NCBI GenBank assembly: GCA_937871295.1 | Contig: CALMRE010000267.1 | Span: forward strand, 1 to 47,932 | DNA from: an uncultured bacterium | GTDB taxonomy: Bacteria; UBP6; UBA1177; JAKLFG01 | Direction: 5' to 3' | Length of the DNA: 47,932 bases | Shown here: positions 5,351 to 47,722 of the stretch, one piece after another | Position numbering within the stretch: the first letter of the stretch is position 1 | How the letters are laid out: every line of letters starts with the position of its first letter | Program-made: the position numbers and the translations under genes | The notes under the pieces: generated by a model | Told to the model about the DNA's origin: nothing | The model's database searches: none | Seen by the model: only the letters and a program-made list of their open reading frames with translations

Positions 5351-5390
5351 TCCTTTTTCACGGCATTTTTGACGGAGGGGTCCGGTGAAC

Positions 5391-7337
5391 ATGCGGCGCC
5401 TTTGGTTCGTTCCTCTCTGCGGCCTGCTGGCCGCGAGCCTTATCTCCACCGCCTGCAGGAAGAAGACCGACGAGGAGCCGGCGCCCGGCGCGGCGGAACC
5501 GGAAAAAGAGAAGAAAGAGGAGGTCTACAACATCGAGATCGCCTCCTCTCCCGTCGTCGGTATCCCCGATGCGCCGGTGACCGTCTTCAATTTCTCCGAC
5601 TTCGAGTGTCCTTTTTCCAAGCGCACCTTCGACACGATGGAGCGCCTGCTCAAGAAATACGACGGGCGGATCGCCTATGTCTACAAGCACTACCCGCTCG
5701 CCACCCACAAGGAGGCGCGCCGCGCCGCCAAAGCGGCCATCGCCGCCGCGAAACAGGACAAGTTCATCGAGATGTACCGGAAACTCTTCGAGAACGGTCA
5801 GTCGATAAGCGCGGACAATCTCACCCTCTGGGCACAGGAACTGGGACTCGATACCGAACGGTTCGCCAAGGACTACGCCGACCCCGACAGCGACCGCCTG
5901 CTTCATGAGGATGTCACGCAGGGGAACATCTTCGGCGTCCGCGGCACCCCCACTCTGTTCATCAACGGCCGCCGTCTTTCGGGCGCCAATTCGCAGCAAC
6001 TCGAACAGCTCGTCGAAGAGGAACTGGAAAAGGGAGAGGCGCTCGCGAAGCGGGGCATCAAGAACATCTACGGCGAACTGACGCGCGAAGGACTTTCCCG
6101 CTATGTGCCGCCCAAACGGCCGCTGCCGGTCGTGCCCGCCGATGTCTACGCGGTCGATCTGCCGCCGCACGCGCCGGTATGGGGCCCGCCGGATGCGCCG
6201 GTGACGGTGGTGCTGTTCACCGATTTCGAATGTCCGTTCTGCGGCCGCATGCACGAGACCTTCACCCAACTGAAAAAGGATTTTGACGGCATGCTGCGGA
6301 TAGTGTTCGTCAACCTGCCGCTCAAATTCCACAACCTCGCGGTGCCGGCCGCCAAAGCGGCGCTGGCCGCCGGACAGCAGGAAAAGTTCTGGGAGATGCA
6401 CGACCGGCTTTTCGCCGATCAGGTCGAGTGGAAGAAAGGGACCAATTTCGATATGTACCTCGACGGTCTGGCGCAGGAACTGAAGATCGATGTGGTGAAG
6501 TTCAAGAAGGACATGGAAGACCCGCGCACCATGGAGATCATCCATCGCGATCTCGCCTTCGCCGATACCGTCGGCGTCCGCGGCACCCCCGGCATCTTCA
6601 TCAACGGCCGCTACGCGAGCGGCGCCTTCCCGCTGGAGACCTTCCAGAAGACCATCCGCGAGGAATTGGAACGGGCGCGGCCGCTTATGGAAAAAGGGCT
6701 GAAGGGCGATCCGCTGTACTACGAACTCATCCGGGAAGGCAAAGCATCGGTCTTCATCAGTCAGCCCGTCCCGGAAGACCCCGACCGGATATACACGGTC
6801 AAAGTGACCGGGCAGGAACCATCGGCCGGGAAAAAGAATGCGCCGGTCACTCTGATAGAATTCACCGATCTTCAGTGCACCCACTGCGCCGCCGCCGCCG
6901 CCGCGGTCGACGCGCTGCAGAAAGAATACCGTGATTCGGTCCGCGTTATCTACAAACAATTCCCGCTCGGCCGGCAGCACCCCGCCGCCGAACCGGCGGC
7001 GCGTCTGCTGCTCGCGGTCAAAAGGCTGTACGGCGACGACCGCTATCAGACGCTCCGCGCCAAACTGCTCGCCGCCCGGACGGAATGGATCGTCGCGGCG
7101 CCGGCCCCGTTTTTCGAGAAGTATGCGAAGGAGATGAAACTCGACTGGTCGAAGATACAGCCGGAGACCGCTTCGGCCGCCGTCGACGAACTGCTCAAGG
7201 AAGATCGCGCCGAAGCGGCCAAGAACGGCGTCCGCGCCGCGCCGACGCTTTTCATCAACGGCCGGAAACTCAACGGTCCGCAATCGCCGGAACGGCTCAA
7301 AGCGCTCGTCGAGCAGTTGCACACACCGAAAAAATAA
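5391..7337 (+). CDS. Lipoprotein-like protein with three tandem DsbA/thioredoxin folds
   Basis: A 648-residue protein. ATG 5391 lies 10 nt after GGAGGGG; GTG 5385 is too close. The N-terminus is a signal sequence ending ISTAC, a plausible lipobox (weak at -3), so it may be anchored in the periplasm. Three DSBA/thioredoxin_4 domains follow. The first has CPFS at residues 73-76, the second CPFC at 281-284, the third CTHC at 496-499. Each has a cis-proline loop and the FINGR motif (GTPTLFINGR, GTPGIFINGR, APTLFINGR). The first domain lacks its second cysteine, so only two are full redox centres. Expected role: thiol-disulfide oxidation or isomerisation of envelope proteins. Three fused DsbA units in one chain is unusual. 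Convergent with the FHA gene. Confidence 0.9.
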   Translation: MRRLWFVPLCGLLAASLISTACRKKTDEEPAPGAAEPEKEKKEEVYNIEIASSPVVGIPDAPVTVFNFSDFECPFSKRTFDTMERLLKKYDGRIAYVYKHYPLATHKEARRAAKAAIAAAKQDKFIEMYRKLFENGQSISADNLTLWAQELGLDTERFAKDYADPDSDRLLHEDVTQGNIFGVRGTPTLFINGRRLSGANSQQLEQLVEEELEKGEALAKRGIKNIYGELTREGLSRYVPPKRPLPVVPADVYAVDLPPHAPVWGPPDAPVTVVLFTDFECPFCGRMHETFTQLKKDFDGMLRIVFVNLPLKFHNLAVPAAKAALAAGQQEKFWEMHDRLFADQVEWKKGTNFDMYLDGLAQELKIDVVKFKKDMEDPRTMEIIHRDLAFADTVGVRGTPGIFINGRYASGAFPLETFQKTIREELERARPLMEKGLKGDPLYYELIREGKASVFISQPVPEDPDRIYTVKVTGQEPSAGKKNAPVTLIEFTDLQCTHCAAAAAAVDALQKEYRDSVRVIYKQFPLGRQHPAAEPAARLLLAVKRLYGDDRYQTLRAKLLAARTEWIVAAPAPFFEKYAKEMKLDWSKIQPETASAAVDELLKEDRAEAAKNGVRAAPTLFINGRKLNGPQSPERLKALVEQLHTPKK

Positions 7338-20365: not shown

Positions 20366-20452
20366 TGGTGCCGGGGGTCGGACTCGAACCGACATGGTGT
20401 CACCACCACCGGATTTTGAGTCCGGCGCGTCTACCAATTTCACCACTCCGGC
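20366..20452 (-). tRNA. tRNA-Leu (anticodon CAA)
   Basis: An 87-nt class II tRNA with encoded CCA (20366-20368). The acceptor arm GCCGGAG/CCCCGGC has one A-C mismatch at pair 6. The D-arm is of Leu type (AAATTGGTAGAC), the anticodon stem is CCGGA/TCCGG with loop CTCAAAA, the variable arm is long, and the T-arm is GTCGG-TTCGAGT-CCGAC. It reads UUG. A T-rich run follows at 20351-20365. Confidence 0.96.
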
Positions 20453-27267: not shown

Positions 27268-30200
27268 TTACTTGGTCGTTTCGTAGGTCATCGCGAAGAC
27301 CGTGTCTTTCAGCCAGCGGCCGAACGACTCGTTCTCGCTGAACTGCTTGTAGAGTTCGGTGTCGTCTTTCATGAGCGAAAGCATGACGCGCAGTATCGCC
27401 TTGTCGTGTTCGATGCGGGCATTCTGCCGGTCGGAGTTCTTCATGGCGTTCTGGTAGGCGATATCGGCCGACACCTTTGCCGGAATCTCTTCGGTCACTA
27501 TACGACGGATACGGTCGGCGTCGCCCCATTCTATGTTGCCGAATTGTTCGTTGAAGGTCTTCAGGATATTACTGAGCCGGTCCAGTTCCACTTCCGGCTT
27601 CCTGCCACCGCTAACCGTTGAGATCGGACTGATCTCAGCATCCTCATCGGGCAACATGATCTTCATAGTACTCTTTTTTTCTACTCGATAGCTGTCCATG
27701 TCGATAGTTTCGAGTATCCCTTTTGCGAGGTCCTCTTCCTTGGGAGCAGGGAGCTTGGGCAGCAGGAAATTAAGGAATATCGACAGCTTTTCCCATTCAA
27801 CCGAGTTGTAGGGCAACAACGAGGAAAGAAATCCGTAGGCGCGGACAAAGGTCTTGGCCTTTCCCTTGAAATCGACTTGACCGTCCTCGTCGAGCTGTTC
27901 CTTGTAGGTCGCCACGCAGGCATCAAGTATCGGGTCGAGCGTTTCACGGCTCTCCCCCTTGAGATAGCGTTCCACAAAAGATTCTATCACTGCCGGAGCA
28001 TACACTTGATATGCGTCCAACTTCGACTTGAGATCATGTAGCTTATTCGGATCGGTCTCTTCGCTGAGAATGGTCGTGCGGTAGTAATCGGCGAACGATT
28101 CCTTGATCACTTCGACATCATTCATAAAGTCGAGGACAAAGACATCATGTTTGGCCGGATGAGCACGGTTAAGTCGCGAGAGCGTCTGTACCGCCTGAAT
28201 CCCGGCGAGCATCTTGTCGACATACATGGTGTGCAGAAGCGGTTCGTCGTATCCGGTCTGGAATTTATCGGCACAGACCAGAAAACGGTACGGGTCACCC
28301 TGTATCTTATCGGCGATCTGGTTGCTGGGAAATCCATTAAGCGACGCTTCGCTTACTTTGGCTCCGTTATAGGTATGTTCACCGGAAAAGGCGACTATGG
28401 CGCGATAGGGACTTTTCCGTTCGACGAGATAATCGCTGATCGCATGGTAATACTGTATGGCACGCTCTATGCCGGAGGTCACTACCATCGCCCGAGCCTG
28501 TCCGCCGATCTTGTTATACCCGAGAACCTGTTCGTGGAAATGATCGACCATGATCTCGGCCTTGAGACGGATGGCGTGATCCTGCGATTCGATATAGCGC
28601 CGGAGCTTCTTATTCGCTTTCTTGGTATCGAAGTACGGATCGTCCTCCACCTTTTTTACCAGCTTATAATAGCTCTTAACGGGCGTATAGTGTTTCAAGA
28701 CATCGAGGATGAATCCTTCCTGTATCGCCTGTTTCATGGTGTAGCTGTGGAACGGACGCCGCTTTATCTCACCGTCGATCTCGACCGGGTCACCGAAGAG
28801 TTCCAGCGTCTTATTCTTCGGCGTGGCGGTAAAGGCAAAGTAACTGGCGTTCGACAGCATCTTATGCGCTTCCATGAGACGATTGATGATGTCCTCGACC
28901 GATTCATCTTCTCCGGCGGCTCCCTTTTCCGAAAGGGCCATGGACATCGCGGCGGTCGCCTTGCCTCCCTGACTCGAATGAGCCTCGTCGATGATAATGG
29001 CGAACTTGCGGGAGCGCGATTCTTTGCCGATCTCCGCAAGGATATAGGGGAATTTCTGGACCGTGGTAATGATGATCTTTTTGCCTTCTTCGATGAATTT
29101 CTTGAGGTCGCCCGAATGTTCCGCGTGCCCTATCGTTGATGCGACCTGCGCGAACTTCTTTATGGTGTTGCGTATCTGTTGGTCGAGAATGCGCCGGTCG
29201 GTCACCACGATAATTGAGTCAAAGACCATCTTGTCGCGGCGCGTGAGGGTGATCAGTTGGTGGGCCAGCCATGCAATGGAATTCGACTTGCCGCTCCCCG
29301 CCGAATGCTGGATGAGGTAACGCTTCCCGCATCCATGTTCCTTTGCATCGGCCAACAGTTTCCGCACGACATCGAGCTGATGGTATCGCGGAAATATCTG
29401 AACCCGTTTCTTTCTGCCGGTCTTCTCATCCTTTTCTTCTATGAGCTGGGCGTAGTTCTCGATAATATCGGTGAGACCGCGTGGTGTCAGCACCTCCTTC
29501 CAGAGATAGTCGGTCTTCACTCCCTGCGGATTGGGCGGATTCCCCGCGCCGTCGTCCCATCCTTTGTTGAACGGCAGGAACCATGAAGCCTTTCCTTTCA
29601 GGTGGGTGCAGAAAGAAACCTCACCGTCGTCCATCGCGAAGTGGACCATGCACCGGCCGAACTGAAAGATGAGCTCACGCTGATCGCGGTCGCGCTTGTA
29701 CTGTTCCACCGCATCGGCTACCGTCTGCTTGGTCAGGCTGTTCTTGAGTTCAAAGGTCGCCACCGGCAAACCGTTGATGAACAGACCGAGATCCAGCGCC
29801 AACGCCGATCCGTCCCGGGCATAGCGCAGTTGCCGCGTGACGCTGAACCGGTTCTTTGCGTAGAGCTCGGCCGCCTTTTCGTTGCCGGGTGTCGGCGTTC
29901 CGTAGAAAAGCGATAGGGCCAGCGGGCCATGTTTGATGCCGTTTCGGAGAACTTCGATGATGCCGCTACTCGTTATTTCGCCTTGCAGGCGGGCAAGGAA
30001 CTTATGCCGCACCGGCGAATCGTGGAGAATGTCGACCGCATCGGCCACCTGCGGCTGCGTTGCCTTGAGAAATTCGGTGAGTTGTAACAGGTCGACGGCA
30101 TATTCGCGGTTGTAGGTTTCCCATTGACCGAGAATCCAACCGGTTCCGCCGTAGAGTCTTGCGGGGCCGCTTGAACCATCTTCGCCTAGCGGCAGCGCTC

Positions 30201-30270
30201 TCCCGGGTTCTCCGGTCATCGCCGTTACGATGAGACTTTCAAGCCCTTTTTCGCTGGTATCGGTCGGCAT
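27268..30270 (-). CDS. hsdR: Type I restriction enzyme, R subunit
   Basis: A 1000-residue motor and nuclease subunit that translocates and cuts unmodified DNA after HsdS recognition. The N-terminal PD-(D/E)XK nuclease shows ALDLGLFINGLP...FELKNS and the downstream DAVEQY (QxxxY type). The SF2 helicase has Walker A SAGSGKSNS, Walker B IIDEAHSSQGG, FTATPKNK, FQTGYDEP and QTLSRLNRAHP. All key motifs are intact. The ATG is 6 nt after the darG stop with a poor ribosome site, so translation is likely coupled. It is last in the hsd operon. Length and motif order are normal for HsdR. Confidence 0.96.
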   Translation of the reverse strand: MPTDTSEKGLESLIVTAMTGEPGRALPLGEDGSSGPARLYGGTGWILGQWETYNREYAVDLLQLTEFLKATQPQVADAVDILHDSPVRHKFLARLQGEITSSGIIEVLRNGIKHGPLALSLFYGTPTPGNEKAAELYAKNRFSVTRQLRYARDGSALALDLGLFINGLPVATFELKNSLTKQTVADAVEQYKRDRDQRELIFQFGRCMVHFAMDDGEVSFCTHLKGKASWFLPFNKGWDDGAGNPPNPQGVKTDYLWKEVLTPRGLTDIIENYAQLIEEKDEKTGRKKRVQIFPRYHQLDVVRKLLADAKEHGCGKRYLIQHSAGSGKSNSIAWLAHQLITLTRRDKMVFDSIIVVTDRRILDQQIRNTIKKFAQVASTIGHAEHSGDLKKFIEEGKKIIITTVQKFPYILAEIGKESRSRKFAIIIDEAHSSQGGKATAAMSMALSEKGAAGEDESVEDIINRLMEAHKMLSNASYFAFTATPKNKTLELFGDPVEIDGEIKRRPFHSYTMKQAIQEGFILDVLKHYTPVKSYYKLVKKVEDDPYFDTKKANKKLRRYIESQDHAIRLKAEIMVDHFHEQVLGYNKIGGQARAMVVTSGIERAIQYYHAISDYLVERKSPYRAIVAFSGEHTYNGAKVSEASLNGFPSNQIADKIQGDPYRFLVCADKFQTGYDEPLLHTMYVDKMLAGIQAVQTLSRLNRAHPAKHDVFVLDFMNDVEVIKESFADYYRTTILSEETDPNKLHDLKSKLDAYQVYAPAVIESFVERYLKGESRETLDPILDACVATYKEQLDEDGQVDFKGKAKTFVRAYGFLSSLLPYNSVEWEKLSIFLNFLLPKLPAPKEEDLAKGILETIDMDSYRVEKKSTMKIMLPDEDAEISPISTVSGGRKPEVELDRLSNILKTFNEQFGNIEWGDADRIRRIVTEEIPAKVSADIAYQNAMKNSDRQNARIEHDKAILRVMLSLMKDDTELYKQFSENESFGRWLKDTVFAMTYETTK

Positions 30271-30276
30271 GAGCAG

Positions 30277-31311
30277 CTATATCCACGCTTTCTGTTTGAG
30301 TACATCCCACGCGACGCGGATATGTTCTTCAGGGAACATCCTCTTGCGGTCGTTCCAATCGTAGGTCTTGCGGATCGCCGCTTCCGGCGTGGCGGCGCCT
30401 TCGTTCTTCGCCACCCAATGCACCGTGGAAAGCAACTCCATTCCATAAGACGACTCAAACCCGCCGATCAGATCGACCACCCGGTTAAATCTTTTTTTAG
30501 TGTCAACCGTTTGTTCAAGATATTCAGATGCCTTTTCGAGCATATCCGGAATTATCTCGATATGCTTGCCGGGTTTATCGACCGCATCTTCGTATCCCTT
30601 GATGAAATGGCCATTTATCGCGTTGAGCACATGCCGCAGGTTTTCGGCGTAGGGACCATACAACGCTTTCTTATACTCAAGCCGTAACGGTTCTCCCGCT
30701 TCCTGCATGAAGTACATGAGCTTGTGCACCTCCAACAGCGTCACGAAGGGGTCCATGACCGCCGCGAGATACTTGCGCATCAGGCACAGGAGTACGGAGC
30801 GACCGGGGGTTAGTGACGGGATTTTCGTCGGTTTGACCAAGCTTTCGAGCGGGGCCGTTTCATCGGGCTCGAACAGGAACACCGTCACCTCGGGCAACTC
30901 GTTCAACACCATCTCTATGACCGGGCGGACCTTTTTCCATTCCAGCCCTCCTGACCCACAACCGAGCGGCGGAACGGCGACCGACCTAATGCCGCGCTCC
31001 CGCAGTTCCCGCACCAGAGAGACAAGCCCCGTCTCTATGTACTCCATGCGGCTTTTTTCTTTCCAGTGTTTCTTTGTAGGGAAGTTGATGAGATATTTCG
31101 GGTTTTTCGGCCAATGTGTTTCATACACTTGAACCTTCCCCACTGTTATCTCGCCAAGGGCGCAGGCAGACTGATACTTGTTGAACATGTCGGGGAATGT
31201 CTTCTTGAATTGCAGGGCGATTCCGCGCCCCATGATGCCGACGCAGTTGACGGTATTGACGAGCGCCTCGGCGTCGGTCGCAAGGATGTTGCCTTTTTTT
31301 ACCTCGATCAT
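30277..31311 (-). CDS. darG: DarG: macrodomain antitoxin of DarTG
   Basis: A 344-residue protein. The N-terminal macrodomain (1-155) has KKGNILATDAEALVNTVNC, GIMGRGIALQF, TKKHWKEKS (the Lys region of TARG1/DarG-type hydrolases) and PPLGCGSGGL. It is expected to remove ADP-ribose from thymidine in DNA. The C-terminal half (about 180-344), with LEVHKLMYFMQEAG and KALYGPYAENLRHVL, matches the DarT-neutralising part of DarG. ATG 31311 has the strong site GGGAGGA just after the darT stop, 11 nt away. This could allow more antitoxin than toxin to be made. It lies between darT and hsdR inside the restriction operon. Confidence 0.93.
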   Translation of the reverse strand: MIEVKKGNILATDAEALVNTVNCVGIMGRGIALQFKKTFPDMFNKYQSACALGEITVGKVQVYETHWPKNPKYLINFPTKKHWKEKSRMEYIETGLVSLVRELRERGIRSVAVPPLGCGSGGLEWKKVRPVIEMVLNELPEVTVFLFEPDETAPLESLVKPTKIPSLTPGRSVLLCLMRKYLAAVMDPFVTLLEVHKLMYFMQEAGEPLRLEYKKALYGPYAENLRHVLNAINGHFIKGYEDAVDKPGKHIEIIPDMLEKASEYLEQTVDTKKRFNRVVDLIGGFESSYGMELLSTVHWVAKNEGAATPEAAIRKTYDWNDRKRMFPEEHIRVAWDVLKQKAWI

Positions 31312-31322
31312 ATCGTCCTCCC

Positions 31323-31967
31323 TTAATAATACCAAGTCGGTTCCACGCGGATTGTCGGCCGCGCTGCGCCGTTCAACGCCTGCCGCACCTGCGTCTCGAT
31401 GCCTGCGTTATGAACGCCGATGTGTTCCACTAAGTGCCACGGAAAGGAATCGTACAGAAGGAACTCGGCCTGCTTCTTTTCAAGAATCGTTGACAAGGAA
31501 AAATCATGAGAAACAACCGCGTCCCAATTGACCTTATCAAGCATCCTGAAGTCATTGTAGAAATTAGTATAGAATGCTCCGGCATTTCTATCCGAAAAAG
31601 CCCATTTCTTTTCATCGGCATCGGCCCATGCCACAACCGCCCGCAAATCAGCTTGCAAGTGTACTATGGGCCCCTGTCCTCCTTTGTATGTAATATCGGG
31701 ATGATTACCTTTGTACATCATATAAAGCATTATGGAGCGAGGGCAGAAATAAAAAGGCACATATTCGCCGACCATCGTGCCGGGATGACAGGTGACCCCG
31801 ATTCTATTTAAGCGGCGTTGCTTGATTTCGCTCATGCCGATAGTTGTGTGTGGCGTGGCGTTTGCGATCACTTTGGCATCAGACGACAGATGGCCGGTTT
31901 GCATGATGGAAGGGAGATTGTCCACATGGGTTATGTGGTAGATTTTCGGGTTTTCCGGTACGGCCAT
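31323..31967 (-). CDS. darT: DarT: DNA thymidine ADP-ribosyltransferase toxin
   Basis: A 214-residue DUF4433 toxin that uses NAD+ to ADP-ribosylate thymidine in single-stranded DNA, blocking replication. Motifs: KIYHITHVDNLPSIM (NAD-binding His), Arg51-Arg52 in KQRRLN, EYVPFYFCPRSIMLYMMYKG, and the catalytic Glu168 in KKQAEFLLYD. ATG 31967 is 4 nt after the hsdS stop and gives the standard DarT N-terminus; a 57-residue extension back into hsdS is rejected. Its ribosome site is weak compared with darG's. All catalytic residues appear intact, so it should be active. DarTG pairs act in anti-phage defence. Confidence 0.94.
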   Translation of the reverse strand: MAVPENPKIYHITHVDNLPSIMQTGHLSSDAKVIANATPHTTIGMSEIKQRRLNRIGVTCHPGTMVGEYVPFYFCPRSIMLYMMYKGNHPDITYKGGQGPIVHLQADLRAVVAWADADEKKWAFSDRNAGAFYTNFYNDFRMLDKVNWDAVVSHDFSLSTILEKKQAEFLLYDSFPWHLVEHIGVHNAGIETQVRQALNGAARPTIRVEPTWYY

Positions 31968-31971
31968 GGTG

Positions 31972-33429
31972 TTACTCGGTTCCCTCGTCGACTTCGGCAT
32001 TATCCACGATTTCGTCTTCAATAGCAAGTTCGTCGGTGCCCTCTTCGGGCGCTTCGGTTTCTTCCGGCTCGATTGGTTCGTCGGGGAGGTTCTTAGCCGC
32101 TTCGCGGACATCGAGTTTGCCGGTGACGACATCGGCAATCAGGCGGATGCGGTATTCGCGGAGGAGAGAGATTTCGCGGTGAGCGCGGTCGATAGTAGCC
32201 TCCAACTTTGCAATACTATCGCCAATGAAATCAAGAATCGCAGATTGTTCGGTCAACGATGGTAAAAATAGCGGGCATGACGAAATAACATCTTGAGCAA
32301 TGGTAGCCATTGTCACGATATTTGCTCGTGATATAAGATGGTGTCTCAAACCAAATGAGTTGAGTTGAATAGCCAGAAAACGAGGATCAACCCTACGGGG
32401 GTTAGGACGCCCCTGCACAAGGTGACATTCAAAAACCGTCTCTGGTTCACAATCGATAATGACCGCTGAGCGTCCTGTGCCCTCTAATTTCAGAGAAGAC
32501 CTGACAAAAAACACATCTCCGGGCTGAACTTGATAGGTCCGTATCTCTTCCGGGGTGGCTTGAACTCGATCAAGCGTGGTGGTCTCGACTTGGAAGTTTT
32601 CACGATAAATGTCGGCAACATTGATCAACGAGACTCCACTGCCAAATGACTCCTTCTTTTTGAACAAGCCATTACGAATGGGTCTGGATAAAACAGACTT
32701 TAATCTATTATTGGCCCAATGCTCCGGCACCTCTCCGAGCCATTCCACACCGGAGGGTTTGTAGGCGGGATAGGGGTTGCCGGTGCGGACATCGATCTGG
32801 CCGGTGACGGCGCGATGGATGATGGACTGCTTCTGTTCTTCCAGCAGTTTTATGAGTTTCAGCTTGGCCTTGATGTACTTCTTGATCTTGCGGTCATAGT
32901 GGTCGAGGAACTTGACGATGGCGGATTGTTCAAGAAGGGGGGGAAAAGGTAGCGCTGATCGACCAAGTTTCTCGTAGTCTATGTTCTGTCCCTGCCTGAT
33001 TCCTGTAACATAAAGTGTCAGGTTTTCAATATACGGTTTCGACTTAAATAGCCTCGCCAAGAAACCATGGATTCTCGTATCAGATGGATACAAGATCGTG
33101 TAGGCGGGACTGATGATGCCTTGCTCGCGTGCGTACTCGATGCCACCCTGAAATGAACGCAGACTTATCACGAAGTCGCCCATTCTCACCAATTTAAGTA
33201 GATGCAAATCCTTTTGTGCAAGCACCGTCCTGTTCTCAAACTGTTCCTTCCGCACAACTCCTTTCATTTGCGTTGCCGCAAGCAAGGGTTCATCAGGGAA
33301 CCCCTTTTCAACCCGTTCGCGCAGCAAGGTCTTTGTGCGCCGAAGGCTCCAATGCTCCGGCACCTTCCCTAGCCACGGCAAACCGGAGTCTTTGCATGTG
33401 GAGTAGGGTTTAAGGTTGGCGATCATCAT
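31972..33429 (-). CDS. hsdS: Type I restriction-modification specificity subunit
   Basis: A 485-residue DNA-recognition subunit with two target-recognition domains. Each begins with the same type of segment: SGLPWLGKVPEHW near the N-terminus and SGVEWLGEVPEHW near residue 230. Each ends in a conserved helical spacer: LEQSAIVKFLDHYDRKIKKY...VTGQIDVR and TEQSAILDFIGDSIAKLEAT...VTGKLDVR. A bipartite target is therefore expected, but its sequence cannot be read here. An acidic 35-residue tail ends the protein. ATG 33429 overlaps the TIGR02391 gene stop (ATGA). A second ATG follows directly. Confidence 0.95.
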   Translation of the reverse strand: MMIANLKPYSTCKDSGLPWLGKVPEHWSLRRTKTLLRERVEKGFPDEPLLAATQMKGVVRKEQFENRTVLAQKDLHLLKLVRMGDFVISLRSFQGGIEYAREQGIISPAYTILYPSDTRIHGFLARLFKSKPYIENLTLYVTGIRQGQNIDYEKLGRSALPFPPLLEQSAIVKFLDHYDRKIKKYIKAKLKLIKLLEEQKQSIIHRAVTGQIDVRTGNPYPAYKPSGVEWLGEVPEHWANNRLKSVLSRPIRNGLFKKKESFGSGVSLINVADIYRENFQVETTTLDRVQATPEEIRTYQVQPGDVFFVRSSLKLEGTGRSAVIIDCEPETVFECHLVQGRPNPRRVDPRFLAIQLNSFGLRHHLISRANIVTMATIAQDVISSCPLFLPSLTEQSAILDFIGDSIAKLEATIDRAHREISLLREYRIRLIADVVTGKLDVREAAKNLPDEPIEPEETEAPEEGTDELAIEDEIVDNAEVDEGTE

Positions 33430-34229
33430 TGTCTCCCAAGTCGCGTCGGGACGCAATCGTCTAGTTTGCGATGCAGTAAGGAAATGAGGGAAAGGTAGTC
33501 TGCTGCATCATCCTCACCATCCCAAAGGATTTTCGGTTCATGCGCCAAAGGATTCCTGACAGCCGCAAAACAACCTTTCAACAATGTCGCAAATCCTTTA
33601 TGTTCACTCTTTTCTGTTTCGGTTCGCAGAGTATTGATGGCAAGAAGCGGCTTTTCAATAGAGAATACTTGGTCCACAAGGGCTGCGCCGTCAGCTTCAA
33701 CCCCGGACAATTCGCGTATTCGTTGCGCAAGTCCTTTGGCTGCCTCAAAGACGGCGTGGAAGTAATTATCTTGAAGTAATTCCGTGCGACAGTACTTCAG
33801 CACTTCAGAGTGAATGCGCCTGCCTTGGAACTTTGCCCGAATCGTGCGTGACCTCTTCTCGGCCTCATCTATTGTTTGAGCCGCCGTACATTGCCGGAAC
33901 CGGCCATCGGCACCATATTCGAGTCCGGAAAAAGCTAGAATGGTATTGAGTTCTTGGCGACGCTTCTCAAACTCTTCACCCCTACCAACGAATCGAGCCG
34001 GCGCAAGGAAAGACTGTATAAAGTCGAGTACCTGATTGGCGCACCCATGTTGACTCTGAGAAGTTAAGAAGATTCTGTAAAGCCGTCGCCATTTTGTAGC
34101 TTCGCCAGAATTGTCATTGAGTCCGCGATCGTGTAGGACACGAGAAATATCTGAACCCGAACCACATTCACCAAGCACTCTGGCAATTGATTCTATCTGG
34201 CCTTCTGGAAATGATGGCACACTACTCAT
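33426..34229 (-). CDS. TIGR02391 (Ymh) family protein with HEPN-like Rx4H motif
   Basis: A 267-residue protein. The C-terminal part (about 145-260) matches the TIGR02391/Ymh family: YFHAVFEAAKGLAQRIRELS, DQVFSIEKPLLAIN, and VRNPLAHEPK followed by DAADYLSLISLLHRKLD. Arg225 and His230 in RNPLAH form the Rx4-6H motif of HEPN nucleases, so an RNase role is possible. The N-terminal 100 residues are an unassigned helical region. It overlaps both hsdM and hsdS by ATGA junctions, so it is made stoichiometrically with the modification complex. The family is often seen near restriction systems. Whether it is a nuclease, an adaptor or an antitoxin-like partner is unknown. Confidence 0.85.
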   Translation of the reverse strand: MSSVPSFPEGQIESIARVLGECGSGSDISRVLHDRGLNDNSGEATKWRRLYRIFLTSQSQHGCANQVLDFIQSFLAPARFVGRGEEFEKRRQELNTILAFSGLEYGADGRFRQCTAAQTIDEAEKRSRTIRAKFQGRRIHSEVLKYCRTELLQDNYFHAVFEAAKGLAQRIRELSGVEADGAALVDQVFSIEKPLLAINTLRTETEKSEHKGFATLLKGCFAAVRNPLAHEPKILWDGEDDAADYLSLISLLHRKLDDCVPTRLGRQ

Positions 34230-36208
34230 TTCGCGGCACCGCCAATAATTTCTCCCAATAACCCTTCCGTCTCCTTCTCCAACGCCAGTATGTCGGCGCG
34301 TATCTCTTCAAGCGTCCGGAGCGGTTGCGGCTTGTAGAAGTAGCGGGTAAAACTTATTTCGTAGCCGGTCTTCACGCTCTCCGGCACATACCACGCATCG
34401 CCCGCATACGGCAACACCTCGCGCCTGATGAACGCCTCAATGCCGCCCTCTTCCAACAGCGGCACCTGCTCCGTGTCGCGCAGATCGCTGTCGGGCTCAT
34501 ACTCCACGACGCACTTCTTTCCATCCACCACTGCCTCGAAAAGTCCGCGCACCGGATCGGCAACCGCGCCTTTCTTGTGTATCTTCTTGATGACCGCCGG
34601 CGCATCCTCGGCCCGTTCCGCCGTATCCTTGAGCGCCTTTATCTCTTTCGCGGCATAGGCGCGGTTCGGGTCGATGCCTGCCAGTCGGAGCGGCCGTTCG
34701 ACCGTGACCTTCCAATAGCCGAGCGCTTCATTGGGGAATATCTTCGACTGTTCGGTCTCCTCGAACTTCAGGAAAACATCACAGATACGCTGAATATCAT
34801 CATCGGAGAGTTCGCAGTTCTTCTTGCCGAGATTCTTGCGGAGCGGCTTGAACCATTGCGTGGCATCAATGAGTTGGACTTTGCCTTTGCGGTGTTCCGC
34901 CTTGCGGTTGGAGAGTACCCAGATGTAGGTCGCGATGCCGGTGTTGTAGAACATATTGAGCGGCAGCGCCACGATGGCGTCGAGCCAGTCGTTCTCGATG
35001 ATCCAGCGGCGGATATTGCTTTCGCCCTGCCCGGCGTCACCGGTGAAAAGCGAAGATCCGTTATGGACTTCGGCGATGCGGCTGCCGAGTTTCGTGTTGC
35101 GTTTCATCTTGGAAAGCATGTTGGCGAGGAAGAGCATCTGCCCGTCGCTCGACCGGGTGATCAGCGAATATTCGGGGTCGTCGGCATGATTGATGAGAAA
35201 GCGCGGGTCTTTGATGGACCCTTTGCCGCCCATCCGTTCAAGGTCGCTTTTCCAGCTTTTGCCGTAGGGCGGGTTGCTGAGCATGAAGTCGAACTCGCGC
35301 GAGGGGAAGGCATCGTTGGCAAGCGTCGAGTGTTCCGGACCGCCGATGATGTTGTCGGCCGCGTCGCCTTCACCTTTGAGCAGCAGGTCCGCCTTGCAGA
35401 TGGCATAGGTTTCGGCATTTATCTCCTGACCGAACAGATGAACCGACACCTTTTTCTTCTGTTTCGCGGCAAGTTCTTTCAGCGTATCCTCGGCAACGGT
35501 CAACATGCCGCCGGTGCCGCACGCTCCGTCATAGAGCAGGTAGGTGCCGTCGTTGATCTTGTCGGCTATCGGGTCGAAGATAAGCCGCGCCATCAACTTA
35601 ACCGCATCGCGCGGGGTCCAGTGTTCCCCCGCTTCTTCGTTGTTCTCTTCGTTGAACCGGCGGACCAGCTCTTCGAATACCGTTCCCATCGCGTGGTTGT
35701 CGAGACCCGGATATTTGACCGAACCATCGCCATTGAGCACGGGCTCGGGGCTTATGTTGATCGCCGGGTCGAGCAGTTTTTCGATGAGGGTACCAAGCGC
35801 ATCGGCCTTGGAAAGACGCGGTATCTGGTTACGAAACTCGAAGTTGTCGAGTATTTCCTGAACATTGGGCGAGAAGCCATCAAGATATGCCTCGAAGTCG
35901 GCCTTGAGTTGCTGCTGGCTTGCGCGGTTCTTGAGATCGCGGAGGGTGAACGGCGAGGTGTTGTAGAACGACTGCTGGGCCGCCTGCCGGAGTACCGCAT
36001 CCTGATTGGTGATACCCGCCTTATCAAGCATCGCCTTTTGATCCAGAACCGCCTTTTTGGTCGGCTCCAACACCGCATCGAAGCGGCGAAGCACCGCCAT
36101 CGGCAGGATGACATCACGATACTTGCCCCGCACATAAAGGTCGCGGAGCACATCGTCGGCGATGCCCCAGATGAAATTAACGATCCAGCTTAACTGCTCT
36201 TGCGCCAT
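34226..36208 (-). CDS. hsdM: Type I restriction-modification methyltransferase subunit
   Basis: A 660-residue N6-adenine methyltransferase. The N-terminal HsdM domain (LSWIVNFIWGIADDVLRD) is followed by the target region HWTPRDAVKLMARL, SAM motif DGACGTGGM (about 224) and catalytic SNPPYGKSW (about 312). The long C-terminal region (about 530-660) may hold HsdS contacts. ATG 36208 has GAGGTC upstream. It is the first gene of the operon, with a promoter at 36241-36269. The stop overlaps the TIGR02391 gene start (ATGA). With HsdS it methylates host DNA; with HsdR it forms the restriction complex. Confidence 0.96.
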   Translation of the reverse strand: MAQEQLSWIVNFIWGIADDVLRDLYVRGKYRDVILPMAVLRRFDAVLEPTKKAVLDQKAMLDKAGITNQDAVLRQAAQQSFYNTSPFTLRDLKNRASQQQLKADFEAYLDGFSPNVQEILDNFEFRNQIPRLSKADALGTLIEKLLDPAINISPEPVLNGDGSVKYPGLDNHAMGTVFEELVRRFNEENNEEAGEHWTPRDAVKLMARLIFDPIADKINDGTYLLYDGACGTGGMLTVAEDTLKELAAKQKKKVSVHLFGQEINAETYAICKADLLLKGEGDAADNIIGGPEHSTLANDAFPSREFDFMLSNPPYGKSWKSDLERMGGKGSIKDPRFLINHADDPEYSLITRSSDGQMLFLANMLSKMKRNTKLGSRIAEVHNGSSLFTGDAGQGESNIRRWIIENDWLDAIVALPLNMFYNTGIATYIWVLSNRKAEHRKGKVQLIDATQWFKPLRKNLGKKNCELSDDDIQRICDVFLKFEETEQSKIFPNEALGYWKVTVERPLRLAGIDPNRAYAAKEIKALKDTAERAEDAPAVIKKIHKKGAVADPVRGLFEAVVDGKKCVVEYEPDSDLRDTEQVPLLEEGGIEAFIRREVLPYAGDAWYVPESVKTGYEISFTRYFYKPQPLRTLEEIRADILALEKETEGLLGEIIGGAAK

Positions 36209-47203: not shown

Positions 47204-47288
47204 TGGTGCAGAAGGGGGGAGTCGAACCCCCATACCTCTCGGCACAAGATCCTTAGTCTTGCGTGTCTGCCAATTCCACCACTTCTGC
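47204..47288 (-). tRNA. tRNA-Leu (anticodon AAG)
   Basis: An 85-nt class II tRNA with encoded CCA (47204-47206) and a perfect acceptor stem GCAGAAG/CTTCTGC. The anticodon stem is CAAGA/TCTTG with 7-nt loop CTAAGGA, giving U33, A34-A35-G36 and G37. T-arm GGGGG-TTCGACT-CCCCC. A34 is rare in bacteria and implies inosine editing. It lies 50 nt after secG, the position of a tRNA-Leu in many bacteria (leuU in E. coli). A run of T follows at 47194-47203. Confidence 0.95.
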
Positions 47289-47338: not shown

Positions 47339-47722
47339 TTACTGTTGGGCCGGGGCTTCCGCAGGAGCCGGAGCGGGCGCCGGGGCCGGGGCCGGGGCCG
47401 GGGCCGGCGCTTCCACCGGAGCGGGAGCGGGTGCCGGAGCGGGCTCTTCGGTCTTGGCGCTGGTCATCTCGGTCGTGGTCTTGTCGACGACCGACTTCTT
47501 GCTGCTCGACAGATGGGCCAGCCATATCGAGTTCAGGAAGAAGAGGATCGCGAGCACCGTGGTGACCCGCGCAAGGATATTGGCCGCGCCGCGGGCGCCG
47601 AAAATGGAACTCGACGAACCGCCGAATATCGCGCCCATACCCTTTTTGCCTTCCTGCAGAAGGATGACCGTTATCATAAGTACCGAAATGATAACCTGTA
47701 ATACCGAGAATACCGTGAACAT
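47339..47722 (-). CDS. secG: Preprotein translocase subunit SecG
   Basis: A 127-residue inner-membrane subunit of SecYEG that supports protein export. Two transmembrane helices (about 3-22 and 50-70) flank the conserved loop LLQEGKKGMGAIFGGSSSSIFG. ATG 47722 has GGGGAG 6 nt upstream. An in-frame ATG at 47752 would sit at the expected transcription start and is rejected. The C-terminus is a Pro-Ala tail of about 35 residues (PAPAPAP repeats, nt 47345-47450), longer than usual SecG. tRNA-Leu follows, as in many bacteria. Confidence 0.95.
   Translation of the reverse strand: MFTVFSVLQVIISVLMITVILLQEGKKGMGAIFGGSSSSIFGARGAANILARVTTVLAILFFLNSIWLAHLSSSKKSVVDKTTTEMTSAKTEEPAPAPAPAPVEAPAPAPAPAPAPAPAPAEAPAQQ

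Follow-up and report, generated by a model that had tools for sequence, protein, structure and literature searches.

A leucine tRNA gene with anticodon AAG downstream of secG in an uncultured UBP6 bacterium, a probable replacement of tRNA-Leu(GAG)

The tRNA-Leu(AAG) gene and its surroundings

The analysed stretch of DNA, called the window here, is 47,932 nucleotides long and carries a leucine tRNA gene with anticodon AAG on its minus strand (47204..47288), which was identified by ARAGORN and scores 54.8 bits against the Rfam tRNA model RF00005, for which the cut-off is 29. The gene is intact: its product has a leucine tRNA fold with AAG in a 7-base loop, the 3′ CCA is encoded, and the gene is kept across the order. 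Its anticodon arm, GACUAAGGAUC, consists of the 5′ stem strand CAAGA (47261-47257), the loop CUAAGGA (47250..47256) and the 3′ stem strand UCUUG (47249-47245), all on the minus strand, and both ARAGORN and the sequence itself place the anticodon at 47252..47254, with A34 at 47254 (position 35 of the gene).

Directly upstream, on the same strand, lies secG (47339..47722, minus strand; Pfam PF03840, E 3.8e-20), with a spacing of 50 bases between it and the downstream tRNA gene. The ARAGORN, Rfam and SecG Pfam matches together confirm the original prediction of a tRNA-Leu with an AAG anticodon at secG. Scans for promoters and terminators around the tRNA gene gave nothing decisive. In Escherichia coli the gene that follows secG is leuU, which encodes tRNA-Leu(GAG), and AAG therefore occupies the site at which GAG would be expected. 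The arrangement is widespread: secG adjoins the tRNA gene in 112 records of AAG genes, in which some genomes are counted twice and several unrelated families are represented.

The rest of the window holds a second leucine tRNA gene, tRNA-Leu(CAA), found by ARAGORN at 20366..20452 on the minus strand, and a type I restriction-modification locus (27268-36208, minus strand) whose HsdM, HsdS and HsdR were recognised by reading the sequence. Between the genes of the restriction locus lie a DarT toxin gene (31323-32138; Pfam DarT, E 8e-65), a gene resembling macro-domain antitoxins (30277-31335) and a gene for a Hypoth_Ymh protein (33426-34229), so that a DarTG-like pair appears to be nested within 27268-36208. 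On the plus strand, 5385-7337 encodes a 650 aa protein with three DsbA/thioredoxin-like domains in tandem.

Leucine tRNAs and TadA of the host genome

The host genome is 3.45 Mb long, 99% complete and divided into 271 contigs, and its tRNA matches were typed from searches and short stretches. The leucine isoacceptors found are CAA, UAA, UAG, CAG and AAG, and no Leu(GAG) gene is present among the typed tRNA matches of this 99% complete genome. The genome-wide search that had been proposed for a missing Leu(GAG) or Leu(UAG) shows that GAG is missing and UAG is present, and the host does not have the complete normal leucine set. The suggestion that the UAG tRNA itself had been changed to AAG is unsupported, given that GAG is the missing gene and that Leu(UAG) (L037) has been kept in a cluster of its own, together with tRNAs for Pro, Arg, His and Lys (order Pro-Arg-His-Lys-Leu). 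Since GAG is missing, UAG is present and the site next to secG is that of GAG in E. coli, AAG stands in for GAG, and it is GAG, not UAG, that is replaced in the host genome.

Only two A34 tRNAs were found in the host genome, Leu(AAG) and Arg(ACG), which bears out the proposed extension of A34 beyond Arg(ACG) to a leucine tRNA. Such a tRNA had been expected to need the action of TadA, an expectation supported by the single intact TadA that the genome encodes, a 161 aa protein that carries the HAE and PCxxC motifs and, among proteins of solved structure, matches tRNA adenosine deaminases best. A second deaminase match (L082) resembles dCMP deaminase when its sequence is read. The loop of the host Arg(ACG) is CUACGGA, as it is in all seven genes for this tRNA that were typed across the order, and it differs from the Leu(AAG) loop CUAAGGA solely at nucleotide 35. 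As PMC11472039 describes the structure of Staphylococcus aureus TadA with RNA, one hydrogen bond joins the enzyme to C35, which is splayed outwards. Because the loop departs from the Arg(ACG) substrate at this nucleotide only, and because C35 is held in this way, recognition of Leu(AAG) by TadA should be easy.

Some further observations were made on the tRNAs of this genome. Ala(CGC) was the only alanine tRNA found and Ile(GAT) was not found either; the other Ala tRNAs and Ile(GAT) were probably lost along with unassembled rRNA operons. A tRNA-SeC gene (L039, G000:C44:49749-49840) lies at a contig end and scores just under the Rfam tRNA cut-off; its presence suggests the use of selenocysteine in the host.

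Distribution and origin of the AAG gene

Within UBP6, AAG was found in 24 of the 28 genomes and the GAG pattern in none (0/28), the remaining four having partial matches; in two genomes of another UBP6 family, in which the long tRNAs were typed, AAG is likewise present and GAG absent. In Cloacimonadota (the phylum of G167, the set including the Cloacimonadota record DFOM01000026, G304), 96/125 genomes match a pattern that permits either A34 or G34, and A34 is found in 96/96; it is this pattern that provides an unbiased count, since the named AAG loci share the arm by construction of their pattern. The arm is the same in the order of the host and in all 96 of these Cloacimonadota genomes. Leu(AAG) is thus apparently fixed in both UBP6 and Cloacimonadota. 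Two tRNA-Leu(AAG) copies lie beside secG in two Cloacimonadota genomes (L180 3303-3897; L135 6300-6514), and in one of the two the gene flanks secG on both sides. Candidatus Syntrophosphaera thermopropionivorans W5, an available Cloacimonadota strain, also carries the AAG gene (L181).

In a spread of 358 bacterial genomes outside UBP6, two of them from Cloacimonadota, AAG was found in 18, GAG in 227 and both in none. The 18 AAG genomes fall in 14 families outside UBP6, one of which is Cloacimonadota, and the hypergeometric probability of such an exclusion is ~6e-9 by genome and ~5e-7 by the 14 families. The scan for GAG allowed either base at position 32, where GAG loops have U32; the patterns miss some tRNAs, and a single absence means little. 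The mutual exclusion of AAG and GAG is clear. One apparent overlap, in G227, was rejected, as the match concerned (L095) is not a tRNA. The switch between the two seems to be recent in places, because AAG and GAG alternate inside one genus (g189, with AAG in G344 and GAG in G212) and inside one family (f15, G186 versus G038 and G325).

That the window gene could be an artefact of sequencing or binning, or a silent pseudogene, might be thought of in view of the fragmented host assembly (271 contigs), and is nevertheless so improbable as to be negligible. Another species of the genus, an independent genome, has the gene with 100% identity, two genomes of the family have it with 98%, and AAG is read in 21/21 orthologous genes typed in the order; sequencing error is excluded by the identical gene of the second species and by A34 in all the genes typed. 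In addition, the covariance score is good and an alternative GAG gene is absent. The ancestry of the gene is a more serious question. A possible history, to which we give rather less than even chances, is that the gene or its anticodon arm is a duplicated Leu(UAG) that changed from U34 to A34 and displaced or converted leuU(GAG) at secG, with identical decoding as the outcome. The U34-to-A34 change of the original prediction survives in this form only in part: the original Leu(UAG) was not lost, and yet the arm GACUAAGGAUC does resemble bacterial Leu(UAG) arms with A34, being the same as typical UAG arms except at position 34. Specifically, the inner GA/UC pairs occur in 28/30 UAG genes and C32 in 21/30, whereas GAG genes have U32 in 31/31 and other inner pairs in at least 30 of 31; outside the arm, the genes of the order have a mean body-profile score of −3.5 bits, on the UAG side, although this profile separates the GAG and UAG classes poorly and placed 19/30 GAG genes correctly. 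Against such a history stand the position at secG, which is that of leuU(GAG), and the D-arm stretch (nucleotides 8-28), where one nucleotide separates the window gene from E. coli leuU and three separate it from the UAG gene of the host. It also fits badly with G025-G027, from another UBP6 family, which have a GAG-like arm (CACGU-UUAAGGG-GCGUG) and a body score of +3.2. These belong to a second group of AAG genes (also including families f17 and f106) in which GAG-like arms with U32 point to plain G34-to-A34 changes.

Decoding and comparison with known systems

Among the genes of the window, CTC is the commonest leucine codon, accounting for 40.4% of 1397 leucine codons (CTT for 14.5%); C-ending codons are also favoured in other boxes, for instance Val with GTC at 49%. 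Leucine codon usage in these genes gives no obvious sign of recoding, and UBP6 offers no relative with GAG for comparison. As Leu(GAG) is missing, CUC needs either I34 or an unusual wobble by Leu(UAG), and with the commonest leucine codon lacking a G34 reader, deamination of A34 by TadA is likely. Leu(AAG) would then be a functional substitute for the standard secG-linked tRNA-Leu(GAG), the resident TadA would act beyond its usual target tRNA-Arg(ACG) and deaminate A34 of Leu(AAG) to inosine, and the resulting tRNA-Leu(IAG) would read CUU and CUC (and, redundantly, CUA), the task of Leu(GAG) elsewhere. In vitro, IAG reads CUU and CUC at similar speed (PMC13249217). The deamination, the enzyme responsible and the decoding are each likely on the present analysis, and we hold the explanation as a whole, from the replacement of the secG-linked GAG by AAG to the reading of CUU/CUC by IAG, with strong confidence.

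If A34 stayed unmodified, the tRNA would read CUU only (and CUC weakly), and CUC would be read mainly by Leu(UAG), with its U34 modified or not. Precedents for this exist, since Oenococcus oeni has A34 Thr and Ser tRNAs without I34 (PMC8072771), and TadA enzymes differ in what they accept: that of Streptococcus pyogenes edits its Leu(AAG) fully, whereas that of E. coli rejects it (PMC11472039). An adaptive signature in TadA, moreover, was not found, as none of its residues separates AAG from GAG genomes when 16 AAG family representatives are compared with 23 for GAG; the lowest P in 1114 Fisher tests was 0.005, which loses significance on correction. We nonetheless regard an unmodified A34 as unlikely; CTC, the commonest leucine codon, would then depend on four-way wobble, which is rare, the loop hardly differs from that of the canonical TadA substrate, and wherever AAG is present a GAG gene was not found.

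The inosine reading has direct counterparts, and the novelty of Leu(AAG) was at first overestimated: earlier papers describe tRNA-Leu(AAG) with I34 from Streptococcus and Oenococcus (PMC11472039, PMC13249217, PMC8072771). Its editing by TadA is proven in S. pyogenes, and tRNA-seq supports it in Streptococcus mutans (PMC11472039, PMC13249217); the mechanism in the UBP6 host is most likely the same. In Lactobacillales, Leu(AAG) replaces Leu(GAG), the two being exclusive between families and reported together in none, and bacterial Leu(AAG) genes are stated to lie almost only in Bacilli (PMC13249217). Searches of open-access papers found none on Leu(AAG) in Cloacimonadota or UBP6. Three points are new here: Leu(AAG) seems to be fixed in two uncultured phyla, outside UBP6 it is scattered over 14 families, and the loop described above agrees with that of Arg(ACG) at every base but one. 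We lean, by a modest degree, towards the broader view that Cloacimonadota, UBP6 and more than ten other families have permanently moved CUU/CUC decoding from G34 to I34, one large group by means of a loop that mimics Arg(ACG) at every nucleotide but 35 and is accepted for that reason by a TadA that has changed little or not at all. If this is true, inosine at the wobble position of tRNAs other than Arg would be an ancient state that bacteria have evolved repeatedly, and not a speciality of lactic-acid bacteria. The spread of Leu(AAG) through two uncultured phyla and scattered families, always in place of Leu(GAG), offers many natural replicates for asking how a second tRNA becomes a substrate of TadA and what selective effect I34 has on the use of leucine codons, including in G+C-rich genomes.

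The closest parallel is provided by Lactobacillales (Streptococcaceae and Lactobacillaceae), in which an A34 leucine tRNA likewise replaces GAG, UAG is kept and TadA is present (PMC13249217, PMC11472039). The present case differs in belonging to another phylum and in being G+C-rich and CTC-rich, where Lactobacillales are A+T-rich, and I34 is here predicted from the gene set. The leucine and arginine loops of S. pyogenes differ at nucleotides 35 and 37 (PMC11472039), those of the UBP6 host at 35 only. O. oeni resembles the host in having an A34 tRNA-Leu, which in O. oeni is edited to I34 (PMC8072771); it has A34 Thr and Ser tRNAs as well, while among the tRNAs found in the host A34 occurs in Arg and Leu only. 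With E. coli leuU(GAG), finally, the window gene shares the site directly after secG and a very similar body, and it departs from leuU in the anticodon arm, which is CUACC-UUGAGGU-GGUAG with G34 in E. coli and CAAGA-CUAAGGA-UCUUG in the window gene.
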